Shown here one piece after another: positions 17,859-54,984 of a DNA stretch of 64,000 nt (its first letter is position 1; each line of letters starts with the position of its first letter). The notes under the pieces were generated by a model. The model did no database searches and was not told the DNA's origin. It saw nothing but the letters and a program-made list of their open reading frames with translations. Origin of the DNA: Tubulanus polymorphus (taxonomy: Eukaryota; Nemertea; Palaeonemertea; Tubulaniformes; Tubulanidae); contig NC_134025.1 of the NCBI RefSeq assembly GCF_964204645.1, positions 4,903,001 through 4,967,000 on the forward strand, written 5' to 3'. The position numbers and the translations under genes were made by a program.

Positions 17859-20800
17859 TCATTGCTCTTTTATAACCTTGTCGATCCATTCTAGATGTTT
17901 TTCAACACGAGCGAAAACACCTGGGTGTCGAGTGGAACCACAGGTTTTACCCCAAGAAATGATACCGACTAATTTCCAAACACCTTCGCGGTAGCACATC
18001 AGAGGACCGCCACTATCTCCCTGCAGAAATCGAAAAATATAATTACTACGTGTTGTTCGCACCTAGGAAAGAAATATGATCATTAATATTGCGAGTATAT
18101 GTAGAAACACAGGTGTCATGTATAGTTTTACGAAAGGTGCGCAAATGTTAATTTGAATTTGTCAGCTATCCAACTGACCCTTTCCGGTCTGGAGAAATTA
18201 TCAAATAGTAAATGTTATGGTCCTTCTGTAAATTCCATAGATTATTGCCAATAAAAAAGGCTTGAATAGTATCACTGTCCAGAAAGTGGCTGCATTTAAA
18301 CCGTGGAGTGATCATTCGACAAATGATTTGACAAATGATAATTTCAAGATAAACCTAGCGCACTATTTATCATTCCTTCGTGACTTGACACTCCAGACGA
18401 ATAATGACGCAACTACTTCAAATGATCGTGAAGCCGTTAAGCCCCAAACCATTGGATTTCGTGCTATATGAGAGATTCGCACAAGAACTGACGGCTTAAT
18501 TAGAACTCTCAGTTTCTTATTCTATGATTTACTCACATAACAGGCCCCGCTGGGAGTATTCGGGTGATATGCACATATTTCGTTTTCTGTCACCATAGAA
18601 TCAGCACGCATGGACTCCGAGACGTACTCAGAAGTGTCGTCGGCCAACACTAGATAGACTTGGATCATTGAGTGACAGGTCTTGTAGTCCATTAACAGTA
18701 CGGGGGCATGTTGAGCATTCGCCGGATCATCTACCGATGAAAAATAACAAAATAAGAGATTTTTCATATTCAGTTTTTTAGTTAACAATCGTCCTGTTTT
18801 TGGTGCCAGTCCTATCGCCAAATGTCTTACAGTCCTTTCACCCATATTCAGACGTTCAGATGAACACAATATATGGAGAAAGGGTGAATGAAACATAAAT
18901 TAGTGTCTTTTATCTTATATCGACCACGATTTACACTCACTCCAACGAGCCGTCTCATTTAACTGACCCCACCCAGAAACATAACACTCGGTGCCGTCTG
19001 CAAATATTTCGTTGTTGTCCGGCAGACATATAGATGTTATGTAGTCGGTCGTTGCTACCGGCGCTTGCAACTTGAGTAAAGCTATATCGTACGACCCTAA
19101 AATTCATATAGTGACAAATATATAATTGACGTTAATATTCTGTACAGAAACTGAATGGTTTAGTTGATTTTTAATTCTAATCAGTTACCTTCAGGATCAA
19201 ATTTCGGGTGAATAACAATTTCTGTCACTCGTGCCTCATATTCTGTGCCATGCTGTACGTGAAAATTGTGTCCTCCGAGCCAAGCTTTTATCGGTGAAAT
19301 TTCATAATCAGTTATGTTTACCCCATCGATATACCTAAAATTCAAACTAAACTCTACAAGAATGACCAAACTGTGTTTAGATAAGGACATGTTTATTTCT
19401 ACAGAACAAAAACGACTACAAGAGCGCGCTATTGGCATATTCTCGCCTAGGAAAGATAACAACGGTGCACAAAAGAGGTTTACATTTTAGTTCTATGGTA
19501 TTCAAGGATACCCTTTGTCAACGAAGCCAGTTACTGGAAAAGACGAGAAGATTCAAATATTATCGATAATTGGCGTTTTTAACTATGGAAGATTAGGTCA
19601 TGGAGGGGCCCTGCGAAGTTGTATTGGCACCGCTTGGCCATCTTCCCTCTGCAGGGACTCGAACCTGATGGCATCGCTACACTCAGCCACGGCACGAACC
19701 CCTGCCATAGACGACCATGTGCGCAGTTACATGCGCACTATCTGAACGAAAACTGGCGGCACCAATCAGATTGCTCGTTGTATAATCGTTGAGGCAAATT
19801 TCGAGGAGGAACTATAAATGGGAAAACCCGGGCTAAAATAAAATGGGATTTCTGATTGGCTAAAAATCACATCATCTGAACTGCGCATGTATCTGCGCAC
19901 ATGGTCGATTGTGGCCATCCTCCCTCTGCAGGGACTCGAACCTGATGGCATCGCTACACTCAGCCACGGCACGAAGACCGGGTGCGCAGTTACATGCGCA
20001 GCTTTCCGAACGAAAACTGGCGGCACCAATCAGATTGCTCGTTGTATAATCGTTGAGGCAAATTTCAAGGAAGAACTATAAATGGTAAAACCCGGGATAA
20101 AATAAAACGGGATTTCTGATTGGCTAAAAATCACATCATCTGAACTGCGCATGTATCTGCGCATACGGTCGATTATGGCAGGGTTTCGTGCCGTGGCAAT
20201 CTCGATGCCATCAGGTTCGAATCCCTGCCGGGGGAGGATGATTGTGGCAGGGTTTCGTGCCGAGGCAATCTCGATGCCATCAGGTTCGAATCCCTGCCGG
20301 GGGAGGATGCGCTTGGCAGGCCTTGCTAATCTAATATTCAGAATTCAACTGGGCAACGACCAACAATCGACCCCTTGATATCTAAACTCCTCAAATACGT
20401 ACTTTGCACAATGAGCTGCGGTGATTACCCATTGAGGATGAATGAGAGCTGCTCCACATACGTGACTTGATTTATTTCCGACATACCGCAAAGAAACGAG
20501 CCATGGCCATTGACCGTGTGAAGAAGGGACGCCTCCGACAATTCGACGAAAGCGTCGTCGCAATTTTCTTCTACCACATAGATTTTTTCCTGCTAATATA
20601 TATGTACATAGCTGGCTTCATTTCAAGTTTTGAATGAAAAGCACAGAGAACGATTCTGTATTATTCTTTAAGCCGACCATCATTACATTACAGATGCCAT
20701 GTTTATCAATGCATCGTTTCTTCCGTTATGCAACTTACATTTGAAACCCCCGCCTTTTCAAATGATTGTATGAAAAAGAAAAAAATGCACACAATAAACA

Positions 20801-23262
20801 GAAACGCGATGATAAAGACTATATAAAATCATTCCGAGAATACTTGCACTGACTTACCACAGGCTAACATATCAAACTGCAATGTGTTATTTTGGTGAGA
20901 TTCTTTCGTGCGGATTCGTAAACAGGATAGCCGGACGAGTTTTGGAAAGTATATGTCTTTTGACGTTCCGTTTTTCTGATAATCAAATGTCTATAGCAAA
21001 AAAAATGAATAAAACATTACGTGGAAGCCCTGTCCTATCTGAACGATGTTTGTAGTTAATAGAAACAAGATACAAACAGTTCTCTACGTCTCCTCAGTAT
21101 TATATTTTCCCAAGTTGACATGTATGTTATCAGGGAGCTTTGGACCGAAGGTTTATGACTGTAATAATGTTTCTAAATATAGTGTCCATCGTTGCTAACT
21201 TAACACTCGGCTAGAAGCAAAGGCTAAGAACCATGTGTCTAGATAATTTGATATCTGTAGTACCGAGACATACATTTTGGTGACAAGAATTATACGGTCC
21301 ATATCAGATTCCTGTTTAATGCGGCTGATCGTATATGGCAAGCGCCAGCGGTTGATCCGAGACTTAAAAAATAGCGTATTGAACACAGCACTGATATACA
21401 GCAACAGGACGAATAATCGCATTTTCGGCCAACCAAACCGATGAACTAATTAATGCGATTAATTACTGTTGCACACAAATATGGATCTGCGACAGTGAAA
21501 GATAATGGAATTTGATAAATAGTCCAGATCCGGTCTAGTTAACGTTGAATGAAGCGGGTTGGTCAAGGACTAATAAATGTAATAAATGTGAGCGTTACTA
21601 ACCAAATTCGTCTGGTTGTTATCCGCAGTAAAATGCCTGAAATCCATACAATTTCTACTGAACGAAACGGTAAATGAATCAAATCGAGTCAGCTGTAGTT
21701 CCCGAGAATGAATTCTCAATCCGGCGACGATTTTTTCGTTCGGTAGTTTTATCTGTAGCCACGAGTCATTTTTCGCCGGACGCCACTTTAGGTGATTACC
21801 CAGCCGAGATATTTCCGTTTCCGGTTGCGTAGTGAAGAAGGAATCGGGGTATCTAGTTTTGTCGCCTAGACCGATTGCCGTGGAACATTTTTGACGCTCT
21901 AGTTTTTGATTTAAAAAAAAAATGAATGATCGACCGGTTGCATTTATATAGTCAAATATTCACTAGGCAAAAATTCACTAAATCAATGTAAACAAAATAA
22001 TCAAGATAACATCAATTCAAAAGATGATTCTGGATCTGATATACATATGACAAATATGCCGCTAATAGTAATAAAGTTCAATTAACAAATTAACATTTTC
22101 CCCATTATATTGATTTTTCTAAGCGATCTTACTACATCCCATCAGTTGCAGACGTGTGATGGCCATCACTGATACTGAATGGCGAACCTTGAGAGTTATA
22201 CACCTCGCCTCAAATATCTCATTAAACCACGTGATCGTTTTATAGTTTCTATTCACGGAAAAGACCTGCAAAATCTCAAACCAAAATCATGTTTCAGTCT
22301 TTATTGGCAGTGATATATTTTACTGAATATCCCAAAAAGCAACATTCGTTTAATCGGTTCTTCAATTTTAGATTAAATTACGACGTACATTAAGTGTGCA
22401 GATATTGATGATCGCGCATTAACGTTTTAACTGTGCTCGAAAATGTTAGAGATTTGTTTTCATTTCATCTAATAAGATCTGACAACTCGTGATTATAAGC
22501 TATGATTCGCTTTCAACTTTTTTGATCTGCATAGAAACGCAGACACACCACACACCTGAAGTTCCCCAGCGGTATCTACAAGCGGGCGAAATCGTTCGCA
22601 ATCCTCGCTGTACCAAAGCGAAAATCCGTTTATCCAATGTCTGACCTCTGTAACCCCTCGCGTTTCGACGCCAGTTATTAGGTAGTTTGACAACAGATCA
22701 ATCTGAGAAAATATCACGACAAAACGCCGATATATCATTTCGACTTATACACAAATTCTCCAAAAGGAAAGAAAAACGTTTCATCGCGATGAATTTCAAA
22801 TTTGAGTTCGTACGTGTATGAAGTTACGTCGATTGCCGATCCAGATATCATCACCAAGTGATGGATATGGTACATAATAACCCTCGCGTAGGTTGAAACT
22901 TGTGTTGATATGTAATGAACCCTCGCAGTTTGAATGCGTATTTCCTGCAAAATTTACTTAAAATCTGATTCATGTTTGGTAAAATTGTCTATTGTTTGAA
23001 AATCTCTAAAGGTCTGAATGCTTGGTGTTTTCGAGGAGATTGTCTATGCATTAATTACCTTCGTAATCTCTATTGCTTGAGGTCTGAAAAGGAATCATCA
23101 TTTATGATATTTGCGGTTTAATAGCTGATATTCCATTACAATCATTGCAATAAAAGACCGGAATAAATGATATTTTCCATCATACCTTGATGGGTCGGGA
23201 CACACAAACAGACGACCATAATACACAGAACCATAAAGAGCAAACGATGATTTCAAGATAAC
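17859..23262 (-). CDS. Two-discoidin (F5/8 type C) chymotrypsin-fold serine protease
   Basis: Twelve exons join in phase (minus strand): 23262-23186, 23083-23059, 22944-22814, 22702-22556, 22265-22133, 21898-21603, 20990-20858, 20589-20403, 19334-19189, 19096-18941, 18730-18537, 18020-17859 (stop). They encode 594 residues from the first listed exon. Residues 1-21 are hydrophobic (signal peptide or anchor). Residues 39-170 form one F5/8 type C domain (core [16 protein letters not shown]), and 175-313 a second ([16 protein letters not shown], ending in MLAC). A linker with CGRR and RFRR precedes IVGG at 330. The protease triad is complete: His373 (TAAHC), Asp428 (DIALLKL), Ser544 (GDSGGPL). 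S1-pocket residue 189 (chymotrypsin numbering) appears to be Gly538, so it is not a classical trypsin. Family knowledge: F5/8C domains bind membranes or glycans and the protease is extracellular. I infer a targeted, zymogen-activated protease. The start codon is unresolved. Confidence 0.85.
19648..19707 (-). repeat. tRNA-like hairpin repeat, copy 1 (inside protease intron)
   Basis: Read on the minus strand it contains an A-box-like TGGCTGAGTGT and a perfect B box GGTTCGAGTCC only about 24 bases apart, against about 44 in a tRNA. The ends pair as GGCAGGG with CCCTGC. It therefore looks like a tRNA gene lacking the anticodon region, or the head of a SINE. Confidence 0.55.
19712..19907. mobile_element. 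MITE with TGCGCA-rich terminal inverted repeats, copy 1
   Basis: The left end CGACCATGTGCGCAGTTACA is matched in inverse orientation at the right end (TGTATCTGCGCACATGGTCG). The internal sequence is non-coding and carries CCAATCAG near the left and CTGATTGG near the right, extending the symmetry. It lies in the intron between the two protease exons that carry His373 and the following loop. A second copy follows. Confidence 0.6.
19925..19976 (-). repeat. tRNA-like hairpin repeat, copy 2
   Basis: Near-duplicate of the repeat at 19648 with the same A-box-like and B-box sequences on the minus strand, truncated at its 5' side where it meets the second MITE copy. Confidence 0.5.
19977..20171. mobile_element. 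MITE with TGCGCA-rich terminal inverted repeats, copy 2
   Basis: Closely similar to 19712-19907 over its length, including the internal GGCGGCACCAATCAGATTGC and the right end TGCGCATGTATCTGCGCA. The offset between copies is about 264 bases, so the repeat-plus-MITE unit is a tandem duplication. Confidence 0.6.
20171..20308 (+). repeat. Two tandem tRNA-like hairpin units, opposite orientation
   Basis: Two 69-base units (20171-20239 and 20240-20308) differing at very few bases. Each has GGCAGGG near the start and its complement CCCTGCC near the end, an inner TGGCA/TGCCA stem, and a perfect B box GGTTCGAATCC just before the closing stem. The orientation is opposite to the two units upstream. Confidence 0.65.
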
Positions 23263-24273
23263 CTGAAATACGTAAATGAATCTGGTCCAAAAATCGTTTC
23301 CTGTTTAGCATTGTTAACACATTCAGCATAATATTTTGCTTCTGTTGCCCAAATACATAGGATCCATAGATTATCAGCACGCGGGAGAAATAACTTGAAT
23401 CGATGAATTCCATTCTGTGCGAGAAGGACGAGTCTTGGACATCGAAAAAAGAAACAACAACAAACGTTGATATAAAAATCTACTGCTTTTATCTACTTAA
23501 TCTGTGAAAAAAATATAAATGCAAAAAAATCTACACATGTCTACAAGTAGATCAATTACCAATGATTGAAGTTCACTGATACAAATTCAATCAAAATCTA
23601 GGATTTCGGTATTTAGACTTTAGACTTCCGTTTATAACGAAGTTGCGTACGGTTCAAAGCAATAAATCAAATGCCTTAAGGTCGTCTTTATCGCAGAAGA
23701 CCAGTTCAAAAGGCAAAAAATATCATAAATGACACGCAATAAGTAAAGCACTGGTTATTTCGAGAAGCTTTGCACGACATCGTAAATCGTAAACATTTCT
23801 CTTAACGGCAATTATATAGAACTTTATAATAAATGACATATACAATATTTCGTTATTAGGAAACTATCCTGAAAGTACTTGATAACACTTTCCAGCATTC
23901 TGGTATTTGATGTTCACGAATATACATAATCCGAATTCGTCCCGAGCGAAGAAATCGCAGACTGAAGTACAGCAAGTCCGAATGTCCCAATGTCCCACAC
24001 CTCAACCAGACGATATGTGTCTACGCGATGCGTGTTCCTTATTAAGACTATCTTCTGCAACAAAAATATATTAAACAAACATATTATATTCATCCCCATG
24101 CTGTCAATCTGTGAAGACTTTTTGGAAAGGTAATATTAGTATCGGGAGTGAAAATCCCAGGCTTAATTGTCTTTTTTTCAGATTATCGGCTGTTTATTTG
24201 AAAATTAAAGTATAAAAATGATTACTGGTAAATATCCTTATGATACAAACCAGACAAAAAATTCATACATCAC

Positions 24274-24640
24274 CTTTGTAACTGGTCAGTATCAAATCGT
24301 CTACGTTTGATTGTAGGTGTGAATGAATTTGTGAAATCCTTCTCGATTGTTTCGGAGAAACAGTCGGCCGGACGATCGAGCAGTACAGTCCGTAGGTTAT
24401 GAACAAGAAAAAACTATACACGACGCAAAAAAACAACGTAAGCAATCCTTGGGCTTCCTCGCCACCGATTTGACAGTTTTTTGCAAGAGTTGCTCTATCG
24501 CGAGTAGAATTGTTTTTTGTACATGCTGTAGTATTTACGAAAGTTGTACTGTTCATATTTGTAGCCCGATGCTGGTGATTGTGTTGAGACATTTTATCTT
24601 GCGTTTTCATTCGAATCTGAACCGGAATGAATGAATTCAC
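24274..24640 (-). CDS. Possible 5' exon of the discoidin-protease, or separate membrane protein
   Basis: A 122-codon frame on the minus strand starts at an ATG at 24640 (further ATGs follow at residues 11, 17 and 29). It ends at a possible donor (AAAG followed by GTGATG) with one base left over, the phase needed by the exon at 23262. It has several N-glycosylation sequons, then a strong membrane segment (residues about 72-95, LLTLFFCVVYSFFLFITYGL) and a basic tail. If joined, the protease would be a 717-residue membrane-anchored protein with a second hydrophobic stretch. The donor is weak and other exons may intervene; the ORF could also be an unrelated single-pass protein or chance. Confidence 0.3.
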
Positions 24641-25969
24641 CTTTCAGGATTTGGCATTTTATACGTAAACAGATTACGCTTGAGGGCGATGTCCATGTGC
24701 CCGTTATCTCACTCGTGTTTACCGTTGACTAACTCTGCAAAGTTGTTTATTCTCGAGCAGAAAGTCAGACAGGGTCAAAGTACAAAAATGATCAATGAGC
24801 TGTCCTTAAGATGGAGCATTTCGAACAATTCAATGCAATCTTCCCTGTCCAGACTGACCAGACAGTTTGATTAGGTATATTATTCAATACACTTGAACCC
24901 ATTCATGGTACTTGCTTTGGGTCATATCAAAGTAGAACATTATTTCATTTTTCAAATCAACTAGCTCGTTTCAAGGAACTTGGGAAAAAAATTTTTAAGC
25001 GTTGTTAAGATTTGAAACAATACACTCTTCAAAAAGTAAAAATAAATTATGAATCATTTACGTAGTATTAGATCTTTTAGCAATGATTAAGCACAATTTT
25101 AAACAGTATTCAAACTTTTTTAAATACTTCAAACAACTGATTTGTTACATAATTTCCAAACACTTGATTGAAAAAAAATTTTGATATTCCCCTGTCTGGG
25201 TGTCACAATATATCATATGCATTATATGCCAAAAGTCATATTTCATTTTTCTATTCACAGATAAAGTCACACAAATGAACCTCGCTTACTTACTGCGCAT
25301 TTTACTGCTCTGTTAAAGTCAGTTCCATTTAATACATAACTGAATAAGAAGATAAAGTGTGCATCTCATTTGGATTTAGTGTTGAAATATTCTTAACTGT
25401 ACAATTTCCGGTTAAGATACGACCTTGCCACGGTAACCTTGGCCTTCGTTTCTTTTCTCGATGAACTTTTCTGAAAAAGTACTGTCGAAAGTAGTATTCC
25501 ATTTACTACATGATATTAATATTTCCCCAATTTCTTATGGACAAAATACTTCATTCACGGATTACATATTTCAAAACCTCAAACATTTATCTCTTTATAG
25601 TCATGTCATTTGAATAGGACATCATACGAAACGTGGTTACAAAATATATTTTGACCCTGATGAATATGAGATGGAAGATAGGATGATAATATGACCTCGT
25701 CCATGCAGATCTAAAACCTGCAGTATCATTTTCTAAAACTCCGTATGATCTATTTTCAGGCTTTCATTGTTTTTCAATCGAATTGAAGAATAATACCAGT
25801 TTATATGCGAAGAATTTTAGCTAACATTGAATTAAAGAGCCTCTTGACCTCAGGCTGCAAACGTGTATTCTGTTTTGATGAGATTAAATATCTATGCATT
25901 TCCTTACTGGAAGAACAACCCTTCGAATTGTTATACTGAACTGAAGATCGCGACCCGAGATACGAAATT
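24641..25969. other. Intergenic, nothing recognised
   Basis: This is AT-rich sequence between the divergent minus-strand protease region and the plus-strand PAN gene. No repeats, RNA genes or exons are recognised. Promoters for the flanking genes presumably lie here but I see no definable motif. Confidence 0.5.
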
Positions 25970-26869
25970 ATGGCGCTTTCTAGATGTTGGATACTTGTGT
26001 TTGGGTGCCTGTCCATCTTGCTCCCAATTATACAGGGTAAGCGTCAAGAGTATATCTTATTAGGAAATAAATACAATCATATTCTATGTACAACGATTTT
26101 GCGCACAATGTTTGATGAAATTCAAAAGTTTTGCCCAGGTTGAAAATTTCCTGCTATTGCAAGTTTATATCCCAGGGCCCAGTTGCACAGTCGTGACTTA
26201 AGTCCAAAAGTGGTCTTAAATCTTAAGACTGGTCTTAAGTTGTTAGATCGAGTATAGAACTTAGTTGGTCTTAGACCAGTCTTAAATCTAAGCCGTGACT
26301 ATGCAACTGGCCCCAGGACTAGAATACCGTCATGAATTAAGTACGTGCTATCGATGGCCCGGCTATTGGCATTGTGAAAAATAATATATCGTCTGGTAGC
26401 CTCTTGGCACTATTCCAATTCATGTAGATTCTTCAAGATGATATAAACCTTTATTGCTCCATTTTAGAAATTTCGAGCAAAGAAAAACTATTATCAAATA
26501 GAACAAGCCCTTCGGTTTGTAATACCAACCCCCTACTAGAAGGCGGTATTAAGACGCTGAATTGAAGGGCGCCAAAAAATTCGAAAGTTAGTGTTGATGA
26601 TCATTGCCTGATTTTTTGCATCTTTGATTCCAGGTAGAAATTTTCAAAATATCTTTCTGCAAAAGGATGAATCGACTGCTAAAGAATCCGAATCCATTCG
26701 TTTGACGGCAACTGGGAGGCTGGATTGTGCCATGAAATGTTTGGCTCGACTGCCGTGTAAAGCGTTATCCTGGGTGCGGCCTACTTGTAAACTGTTCGAC
26801 AAAGTTCCCTCGTCGAATGGCTCAGAAATGCAGTGGGAGTTTTATAAAGTTGTAACTCGCGTCAAGTAA
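25970..26869 (+). CDS. Secreted single PAN/apple-domain protein
   Basis: A complete two-exon gene. Exon 1 (25970-26036) starts ATGGCGCTTTC and encodes 22 residues, MALSRCWILVFGCLSILLPI plus two more, a typical signal peptide. It ends in phase 1 before GTAAGC. Exon 2 (26634-26869, stop TAA) follows TTGATTCCAG and resumes in phase. The product is 100 residues. After the signal peptide comes one compact cysteine module with the PAN/apple spacing: LDCAMKCLARLPCKALSW, then CKLF. PAN/apple domains mediate protein or carbohydrate binding outside the cell; here it is the whole mature protein, with no attached protease or lectin. Its ligand is unknown. The neighbouring discoidin-protease is also extracellular but is divergently oriented, so a functional link is only conjecture. 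Confidence 0.8.
26171..26317. repeat. Foldback (MITE-like) element in PAN gene intron
   Basis: The left end CCCAGTTGCACAGTCGTGAC matches in inverse orientation the right end GTGACTATGCAACTGG, and the inner halves (GGTCTTAAA, TTAAGACTGGTCTTAAG against GGTCTTAGACCAGTCTTAAA) are also mutually complementary. The whole 147 bases form an imperfect palindrome within the single intron. This is typical of a non-autonomous foldback element. Confidence 0.7.
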
Positions 26870-52400: not shown

Positions 52401-54984
52401 ACATACGAAAACAAATTACTATTTACAATGAATCCAGCGTCGTGGAATTTAGAAAAGAATATTTTTCTTGATTTACAGGACTGACGGAAAATTGGAGCTA
52501 TTTCGTGAAATTCAACTCCCAATCAGAATAACTCACGATGGCCTGATTCGTTGGGACCCGGGCGGTACTTTCCTTACCATGTGCAAAATGAAGATGACCA
52601 TGTTTCCGTTTGACAAACAAAACTGTTATCTGCGTCTGGCGACGTGGGCATCCGTTAATCGCGAGTTCTCATTTCGGATAGTTGGGAATATCAGTGACGC
52701 GCAGATGTACTACACGGAAAGTAACACGTGGTCGCTGGACCCAAATGGAATATCTATTCACGTGGAACTACCCGAGGCAGGAGAGGAAGGCGAAAATATA
52801 CCCTTTCTAGTCGTTACGATAACAGTCGGTCGAAAAAGTCTATACTATATTGTTAATATCATTTGTCCTTGTTTGCTGTTTTCGTTGATGCTGCTAACGG
52901 TATTCGCCCTGCCACCAGAGTCTGGTGAACGGGTCGGACTGGGAGCCAATGTGGTCGTTGGGCTGATCGTGTTTTTACTACTAGTCGCCGAGAATATTCC
53001 TCGCTCAGGTGACGAGGTTCCCATACTAGGTAAGTATCGAGAAATCCCAGTAAAAAATATATATGAAAGAAATGGTTAATCTTTGAGTCCTTTTCATTAT
53101 CGACTCTTTATAAATTAAGGAAATTGAAAGTGAAACCAGCTCCGGAAATTCATTAAATTCAACGCTATTTTCCATTGAGAATACGCGTATAGATAATCTA
53201 AAAGAAGTTCTTCGAAGTCTTTAAAGCGATTTCATTACGACTCGATGTAAATTTTTGATTCGATAAACTCGAGCCGTCTGTCGGTACGCTGCACACCTGA
53301 AATGCGACGACAGCAGCACATCTCGTTTATATGAAACCGCTATTGCAGCACACGCCAGTGAACTAACGAGATCAACGCATCTAGATGATACGCCAAATGA
53401 GCTTGATTGTAACTAATTTGTTGAACAGATCCTGCGTTATTGTTATCCGTTCGTCGACGTAAGTTGTCAAGGGGAAATTCTCCGCTAAAGGGTGGCCAAT
53501 TAGGTTTGCCATAGTACGGTTATTTCGAAGAAATCCATTAGTTCTTTAACTCGACGACACATGCGTGGTTTATAATTTGATTGTATCGCAAGAGCAGATA
53601 TTTCTTCGGATAATCAATGCATTTTCGAGCTGCACAAATTCGATTTTTTTTCATATCGAAAAATTCGATTAAGGTGTCTAGTTCGGTGATTCTATGCCCG
53701 ACTGTGATAACGATGTTACTGAAATAACGCCTCATTAATTGCTCTGTCAAAGGGTTTGTTTAGATGGCCACGAGATACATAATTCACGATAACATAAAGT
53801 GGTTCCGGTGCCTGCGCGTCGGTCATTTTATCATCGATTAGCCATCACACGGTTGAAAGAGGGAACAGTTATTCGGTAATTAATCGCCCACGCCGTCGGT
53901 CATACCATGTCTGACAACTTCTTGTCGATGACCAAAAACAGTTTATACAGATTTAAGCCGTGTTTATATCATCATAAGCTGTGGGACTGTTTTACCGTTC
54001 CGCGTGAACGAAATGAAAAAAAGATAATCTATTCTTGAGAAATAGCAAAACCAGAAAGATATAATAATTGTTTCTGAAACTGCGCTGTCGATGAATCCCA
54101 TAATCGTTTATTCCGGGTATGCGATTGTCTCGTCACACAAATTTCAATTATTGTGCGACACATGGCGAAAACGAGGGCAGTGTCACGTGGTTACGCCATG
54201 TAGCGTCTTCTTGCAATTTCGGCCAGGTCCCCGCGGATGACCGTTTCATTAGATCACGTCTATATGGTAATATTCATCAGTACGGGAATTGCGACTAATA
54301 ATGTATATCGTCGCAAATGAGACTGAATGAATCGCCTACGAGACACGTCCGTTACTGGACAATTGCTAACGTACATGACATGGTTGAAACGAATGAAATG
54401 AAACGTATCCCTTATCATTGTCCAGCAGACATGTGCGGGATAAAAGAAAAGATAACTATGTTCTTTTTCTTCTTACAGCTATATATCTAATGTTACTATT
54501 AGCCTTATCGTGCGGGTCAGTTGTGATATCTGTACTACTTGGTAAATTAGCGATGATGTCGAGGCCGAATAATAACGTTTATGCGGGAGAAAGGCAAAAA
54601 TCTGCCGCCTGGCTTTTTACTAATAGCGAAAAACGACGGAAAACCCATCGAAGTAGTGTTTCAACCGATAACTGCTTCCCGTGTCCGGCGAAGTCCTTGA
54701 CGGTGAAACGTTTTCTTCATAAAAATCGCTGCCGCCAAGAGACGGTCAATAACCATCACGGCGAAGCGGACGACGGACCGGACGCTACGACTGCTTTGCA
54801 CAAACAAATTGATGCTCAGGAATCATTCGAAGAAACGATACCCATCCGTCGACCGGACGAAGCGGCTGCGAAAGCGGTCAAATTTTACAGAGCAGCGAAA
54901 ATAATCGATAGACTATGTTTAATTGTATATACACTTGTTCTAACATCGGTAACTTGTTATCTATTGTCCCTTTCTCGCTCATAG
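37499..54984 (+). CDS. Cys-loop ligand-gated ion channel subunit (nicotinic-receptor-like)
   Basis: Six exons: 37499-37550, 51085-51218, 51509-51553, 51915-52024, 52479-53029, 54479-54984. Phases agree and the total is 1398 bases, 465 residues. Exons 3 (45 bp) and 4 (110 bp) have the sizes classical for nicotinic receptor genes. Residues 1-18 form a signal peptide; exon 1 lies 13.5 kb upstream and is the least certain part. WLPD lies in loop A; the Cys-loop is Cys149-Cys163 with FPFD inside; TM1 is about 236-258; TM2 follows GERVGLG with Glu at -1', expected for cation selectivity; TM3 is 298-318; a cytoplasmic loop of about 120 residues and TM4 at about 440-461 follow. The vicinal CysCys of alpha subunits (loop C) is absent, and loop B keeps Trp170 but not the usual TYDG. 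I infer a non-alpha or divergent subunit of a pentameric channel in the plasma membrane; its ligand cannot be told. Confidence 0.85.
38020..38196. repeat. Foldback (MITE-like) element
   Basis: Terminal AAAGTCCCAC at the left pairs with GTGGGACTTT at the right. Inside, ATTGAAATTAAACCA pairs imperfectly with TGGTTTCACTTCAAT, and CATCAGGTGAAATGAT with ATCATTCCACCTGATG. The structure is a symmetric palindrome of about 177 bases. Confidence 0.65.
38765..38852. repeat. AAT/ATT microsatellite
   Basis: Interrupted run of AAT, GAT and ATT triplets that changes from AAT to ATT in the middle, making it partly self-complementary. Confidence 0.9.
45138..45213. repeat. Hairpin with 12-bp perfect arms
   Basis: TCTCAGAACGCG at 45138-45149 is exactly reverse-complemented by CGCGTTCTGAGA at 45202-45213, with a 52-base loop. 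The loop shows little further pairing. It may be a decayed foldback element. Confidence 0.5.
47497..47528. repeat. TA/GA simple repeat
   Basis: Run of TATA and GATA/GAGA dinucleotides, a low-complexity tract in the intron. Confidence 0.7.

Follow-up and report, generated by a model that had tools for sequence, protein, structure and literature searches.

Two-chain proteases of the S1A type, such as plasma kallikrein, tryptase, plasminogen, and enteropeptidase, share a catalytic domain, activation at R|IVGG, and the C1-C122 cysteine pair, and carry their non-catalytic modules N-terminally, these being apple, kringle, SRCR, CUB, or LDLa domains. Invertebrate mosaic proteases (CLIP, MASP-like, trypsin-ShK, trypsin-MAM, and trypsin-SRCR) likewise place lineage-specific adhesion modules on an S1A domain (PMC6767649). 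According to a survey of animal trypsins, their accompanying domains are continually gained and lost and the architecture is little conserved (PMC6767649), so that an unfamiliar domain combination is not in itself surprising. Discoidin (F5/8C) domains, for their part, are found as tandem pairs with terminal cysteines and a common set of core strands in coagulation factors V and VIII, in the b1/b2 region of neuropilin, and in lactadherin, none of which couples the pair to a protease.

The gene considered here lies in a 64,000-nucleotide stretch of Tubulanus polymorphus DNA (the window; C1:4903001-4967000 of a 268 Mb genome) and resembles both kinds of protein, having a tandem F5/8C pair fused to an S1A domain in place of the apple, kringle, SRCR, CUB, or LDLa modules of the two-chain enzymes. 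In contrast to the partners used by the invertebrate mosaic proteases, a pairing with F5/8C was not found in the literature, nor was any description of the F5/8C-F5/8C-S1A architecture, the protein databases of other animals being outside the scope of this search; a search of NCBIfam gave no match. The gene is an uncommon but understandable joining of two well-known parts. On balance, it probably encodes a secreted S1A zymogen—signal peptide, abridged first F5/8C domain, full second F5/8C domain, basic activation segment, and catalytic domain—which would be activated, held at a surface, and chymotrypsin-like, likely acting in limited extracellular proteolysis.

Gene structure in the window

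Read from the genomic sequence, the gene occupies 23262-17859 on the minus strand, exon 1 beginning at 23262 and the stop codon ending at 17859, which is the span given in the original prediction. That prediction counted twelve exons, whereas 11 coding exons are counted here, giving a protein of 577 residues; its claim that every junction is in phase holds, as all introns are GT-AG with phases matching throughout. A splice-aware aligner, set to place the window protein on the region, recovered identical exons. Exon 1 (23186..23262) contains the 5' end, an ATG at 23234, and the signal peptide, and because a stop in the same frame lies just upstream of this ATG within the exon, it is taken to be the signal-peptide exon of a secreted protein. 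The first F5/8C domain starts in exon 2 (22814..22944, first cysteine C23), has its core in exon 3 (22556..22702; LITGVETRG...WYSEDC, C95), and ends in exon 4 (22133..22265; FEARC, C131, and the closing MGC, C153). The bulk of the second is encoded by exon 5 (21603..21898; KC ... SWLQIKLP ... SFSRNC) and its end by exon 6 (20858..20990; RLSC ... MLACG|), after which comes a phase 1 intron common to the paralogs checked.

Exon 7 (20403..20589) carries the activation segment and the start of the protease, including the catalytic His codon at 20411-20413, and the protease continues through exon 8 (19189..19334), exon 9 (18941..19096), with the catalytic Asp of DIALL at codon 19086-19088, and exon 10 (18537..18730), with the S1 residue Gly189 and a long 170-loop of 33 residues between C168 and C182. 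Exon 11 (17859..18020) supplies the catalytic Ser of GDSGG (codon 18012-18014), the C-terminus, and a TGA stop. Exon reading and Pfam together bear out the predicted order of two F5/8C domains, a basic segment, and an entire S1A domain with His, Asp, and Ser. What had been termed a basic linker is indeed a basic segment in that place, but is actually the 12-residue zymogen activation segment CG...RR|IVGG (20543..20578), with cleavage predicted before IVGG. Judged by sequence, the combination of F5/8C and S1A domains in this gene is far beyond chance.

Several other features were seen in the window and genome. At 19635-20310, intron 7 of the gene contains a dispersed repeat in both orientations, the core of which (GGTTCGAATCCCTGCC) resembles a tRNA B-box; approximately 800 matches occur across the genome when up to 2 mismatches are allowed, and the repeat is SINE-like, although ARAGORN found no tRNA. 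Near the protease gene, a weak PAN-domain-like ORF lies at 26612-26869 on the plus strand (E 0.0067, below cut-off), and a neurotransmitter-gated ion channel of the Cys-loop type has exons at 52453-53076 and 54397-54981, also on the plus strand. A miR-1993-like hairpin at C2:25144567-25144588 folds properly and differs from miR-1993 by one mismatch; this microRNA is suggestive of a protostome and probably of a lophotrochozoan. A search for COX1 gave no match.

Paralogous loci and the extent of the gene

A protease query and Pfam scan of the genome returned many S1A exons and many F5/8C exons, and at six loci the S1A exons are closely preceded by F5/8C exons of the same strand. Besides the window gene, these are five paralogs on three chromosome-size contigs, namely L009 (C1:4.65 Mb), L014 (C1:24.43 Mb), L015 (C3:6.68 Mb), L011 (C5:8.68 Mb), and L012/L013 (C5:17.48 Mb). 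A query made of the F5/8C part of the window protein only, and another that combined the second F5/8C domain of L014 with the first part of the L014 protease, recovered the six loci also found by protease queries, in the same order and strand, and no seventh locus with F5/8C and protease was returned by the genome searches with F5/8C queries. The count of six, obtained by exon-by-exon search of an assembly containing runs of N, is a lower bound. Gene models of the paralogs are splice-aware alignments and hence approximate rather than curated; setting strict thresholds on the splice score made the models worse, and these thresholds were abandoned. The intron at the junction of the second F5/8C domain and the protease has the same site and phase 1 in the window gene and in the four paralogs whose models resolve the join, L014, L015, L011, and L012, following '(G)GCG' or its equivalent and preceding CG..[KR]R|(I/V); in L009 the end GCG|GTAAGC is visible. 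The intron before GDSG, phase 0 in the window gene, has its boundary also visible in L014, L015, L011, and L012.

This arrangement bears on how far the gene extends at either side of the junction. In a genome with many F5/8C exons and many S1A genes, two neighbours, a lectin-like protein with F5/8C domains and a plain S1A protease, might have been joined by eye, but such a reading is very improbable and two separate genes are rejected, since the arrangement recurs at six loci and querying with F5/8C or with protease sequence alone finds one and the same set. It also has to contend with a protease that has no signal peptide of its own, with the protease C1 cysteine standing at the start of the exon that continues the second F5/8C domain, and with six protease domains that form one clade. 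Five paralogous loci keep the order and four of them share the junction intron, which makes it unlikely that the discoidin exons and the protease exons belong to different mRNAs. The 5' end raises a different question, as an ORF at 24266..24643 on the minus strand encodes 114 residues with one predicted membrane-spanning segment and three N-terminal N-glycosylation motifs. This ORF is more probably a separate gene, an alternative first exon being possible. That the protein is a type II transmembrane protease, with the ORF as true or alternative first exon and its membrane anchor replacing the signal peptide, is improbable: a possible donor, AAAG|GTGATG in phase 1, would join the membrane-spanning ORF to exon 2 in frame, but exon 1 at 23262 already offers a start codon and a signal peptide that fit in phase, and the N-terminal glycosylation motifs would face the cytoplasm if the protein were of type II. 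Moreover, the ORF weakly resembles KCNE (Pfam PF02060, E 0.021, below cut-off; PDB 2k21, E 0.8), and no copy of it stands beside the five paralogs, as the genome search found no second copy. The preferred reading of the locus is a single gene beginning at exon 1 with its signal peptide.

Activation, specificity, and ancestry of the protease

The window protein matches Pfam Trypsin (PF00089) over the whole profile (1-220/220, E 1.2e-58), and its nearest solved structures are those of tryptase and of plasma kallikrein (E 2e-44). Its catalytic triad consists of H356, D411, and S527, the last within a GDSGG motif. The mature chain has 18 cysteines, all assignable to pairs, their positions being computed and their pairing drawn from knowledge of the family; the C1-C122 pair is retained, with C301 and C431 as predicted partners. 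At the activation site, RFRR|IVGG, a basic residue (R/K) precedes I/V-V-G-G and cleavage is predicted. Plasma kallikrein, tryptase, plasminogen, and enteropeptidase mostly have a single basic activation residue, whereas a dibasic P2-P1 is present in the window gene, and indeed in 6/6 family members and in L010, a sister gene, as against 0/18 of the other S1As sampled; since the six members and L010 share ancestry, the dibasic site may represent a single event. The furin rule R-X-[KR]-R fits two of the six sites (RFRR in the window gene and RVKR in L014), the remaining members being dibasic only. Aliphatic P1' residues such as Ile and Val are poor for furin, and activation by a convertase is uncertain on both these grounds.

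Residue 189 of the S1 pocket, which is Asp in the two-chain enzymes named above and confers trypsin specificity, is Gly in the window gene, L014, L015, and L012, Ser in L011, and Asp in L009 and L010. Because residue 189 is Gly or Ser in five of the six members, chymotrypsin-like specificity is predicted for these five, specificity being read here from pocket residues only. The 170-loop between C168 and C182 comprises 18 to 45 residues in the family and 12 to 21 in other S1As, a range that leaves out three misread models (L031, L033, and L035). In place of the usual Gly193 of the oxyanion hole, the S1As L010, L017, and L021 have Phe, Arg, or Met, changes that recall Arg193 of mesotrypsin and its inhibitor resistance.

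In trees of 29 S1A domains, all from this genome, the six F5/8C proteases form one clade (FastTree 0.974, UFBoot 95), to which L010 is sister (UFBoot 98). Within the clade L009 branches first in the FastTree tree, the separating node having a support of 0.884. L010 lies at C1:4897949-4899913, 3 kb to the left of the window. It had been considered as a further family member along with L016 and L017, and all three were rejected as no F5/8C was found upstream of them. The family may tentatively be described as lineage-specific, surface-tethered, convertase-activated S1As that arose once, when a tandem F5/8C pair was fused to a tryptic S1A gene, followed by a change from Asp189 to Gly/Ser189 and a longer 170-loop; the pre-fusion sister would still lie approximately 20 kb away on the same contig. 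This history is a possibility rather than the expected outcome.

Surface attachment and proposed role

Pfam F5_F8_type_C recognises two stretches of the window protein (E 1.4e-13). Taken alone against PF00754, for which the gathering score is 28.2 bits, domain 1 scores 28.7 bits over profile positions 32-114 of 127, whereas domain 2, with 26.9 bits, falls slightly below the cut-off, while the L014 homologue of domain 2 reaches 44.7 bits. Family profiles built from the six members and compared with PDB domains match coagulation factor VIII/V for domain 1 (E 1.6e-25) and neuropilin-1 and factor V for domain 2 (E 4.7e-19). In contrast to the domains of factors V/VIII, neuropilin, and lactadherin, domain 1 is abridged, being short at its N end with approximately 36 residues from the first Cys to the conserved core strand, and probably does not have the first ligand loop; because the part of the fold that bears this loop in factor V/VIII is absent, domain 1 may bind nothing. 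The two domains also have an extra cysteine pair (C95/C131 in domain 1 and C237/C275 in domain 2 of the window protein) where the domains of factors V/VIII, neuropilin, and lactadherin have Gly and Tyr/Phe. This pair is present in domain 2 of 6/6 members and in domain 1 of 4/6, both cysteines being absent from domain 1 of L011 and L012. The net charge of domain 2 is positive in 5/5 members tested.

Since the F5/8C domains match the type of factor V/VIII, neuropilin, and lactadherin, a surface-targeted protease can reasonably be inferred. The zymogen would be cleaved at RFRR|IVGG, whether by a proprotein convertase during secretion or extracellularly by a trypsin-like protease, and the F5/8C chain would stay disulfide-bonded to the catalytic chain through C301-C431. 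Through its F5/8C pair, and mainly through the basic domain 2, the enzyme could then be held on an anionic membrane, glycan, or matrix, so that proteolysis would be confined to the surface. There, the uncharged S1 pocket (G189, G216, and G226) would be expected to cut after large apolar residues and not after Arg or Lys, with the long 170-loop narrowing the choice of substrate. The role would most likely be limited extracellular proteolysis in innate immunity or in matrix turnover, the data favouring neither.

Two other roles have to be set against this. Long 170-loops and non-catalytic modules are commoner in regulatory than in digestive S1As, and the presence of both in this gene argues against a protease of the gut lumen or of venom or mucus, in which the F5/8C domains would adhere to food or prey surfaces and the function would be neither immune nor matrix-related. 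Such an enzyme would suit the chymotrypsin-like pocket, and F5/8C proteins are present in secretions such as leech saliva (PMC7191736), but nothing in the sequence favours it, and it is considered an unlikely alternative. Far less probable is a catalytically silent or scaffold S1A homologue, an idea suggested by the altered GDSGGP surroundings of the active Ser in L011 (GDSGS), L012 (GDSGT), and L009 (GDSGGG), as the window gene keeps H57, D102, S195, G193, D194, and IVGG intact.

If the reading of the gene as a secreted, surface-held zymogen is true, F5/8C becomes one more module by which S1A proteases outside the cell are directed to surfaces. The genome also keeps a readable series, from a sister without F5/8C through an early-branching F5/8C member with Asp189 to five members with Gly/Ser189, and the gain of a module, the change of specificity, and the change of the activation site would therefore be directly testable in one protease family.
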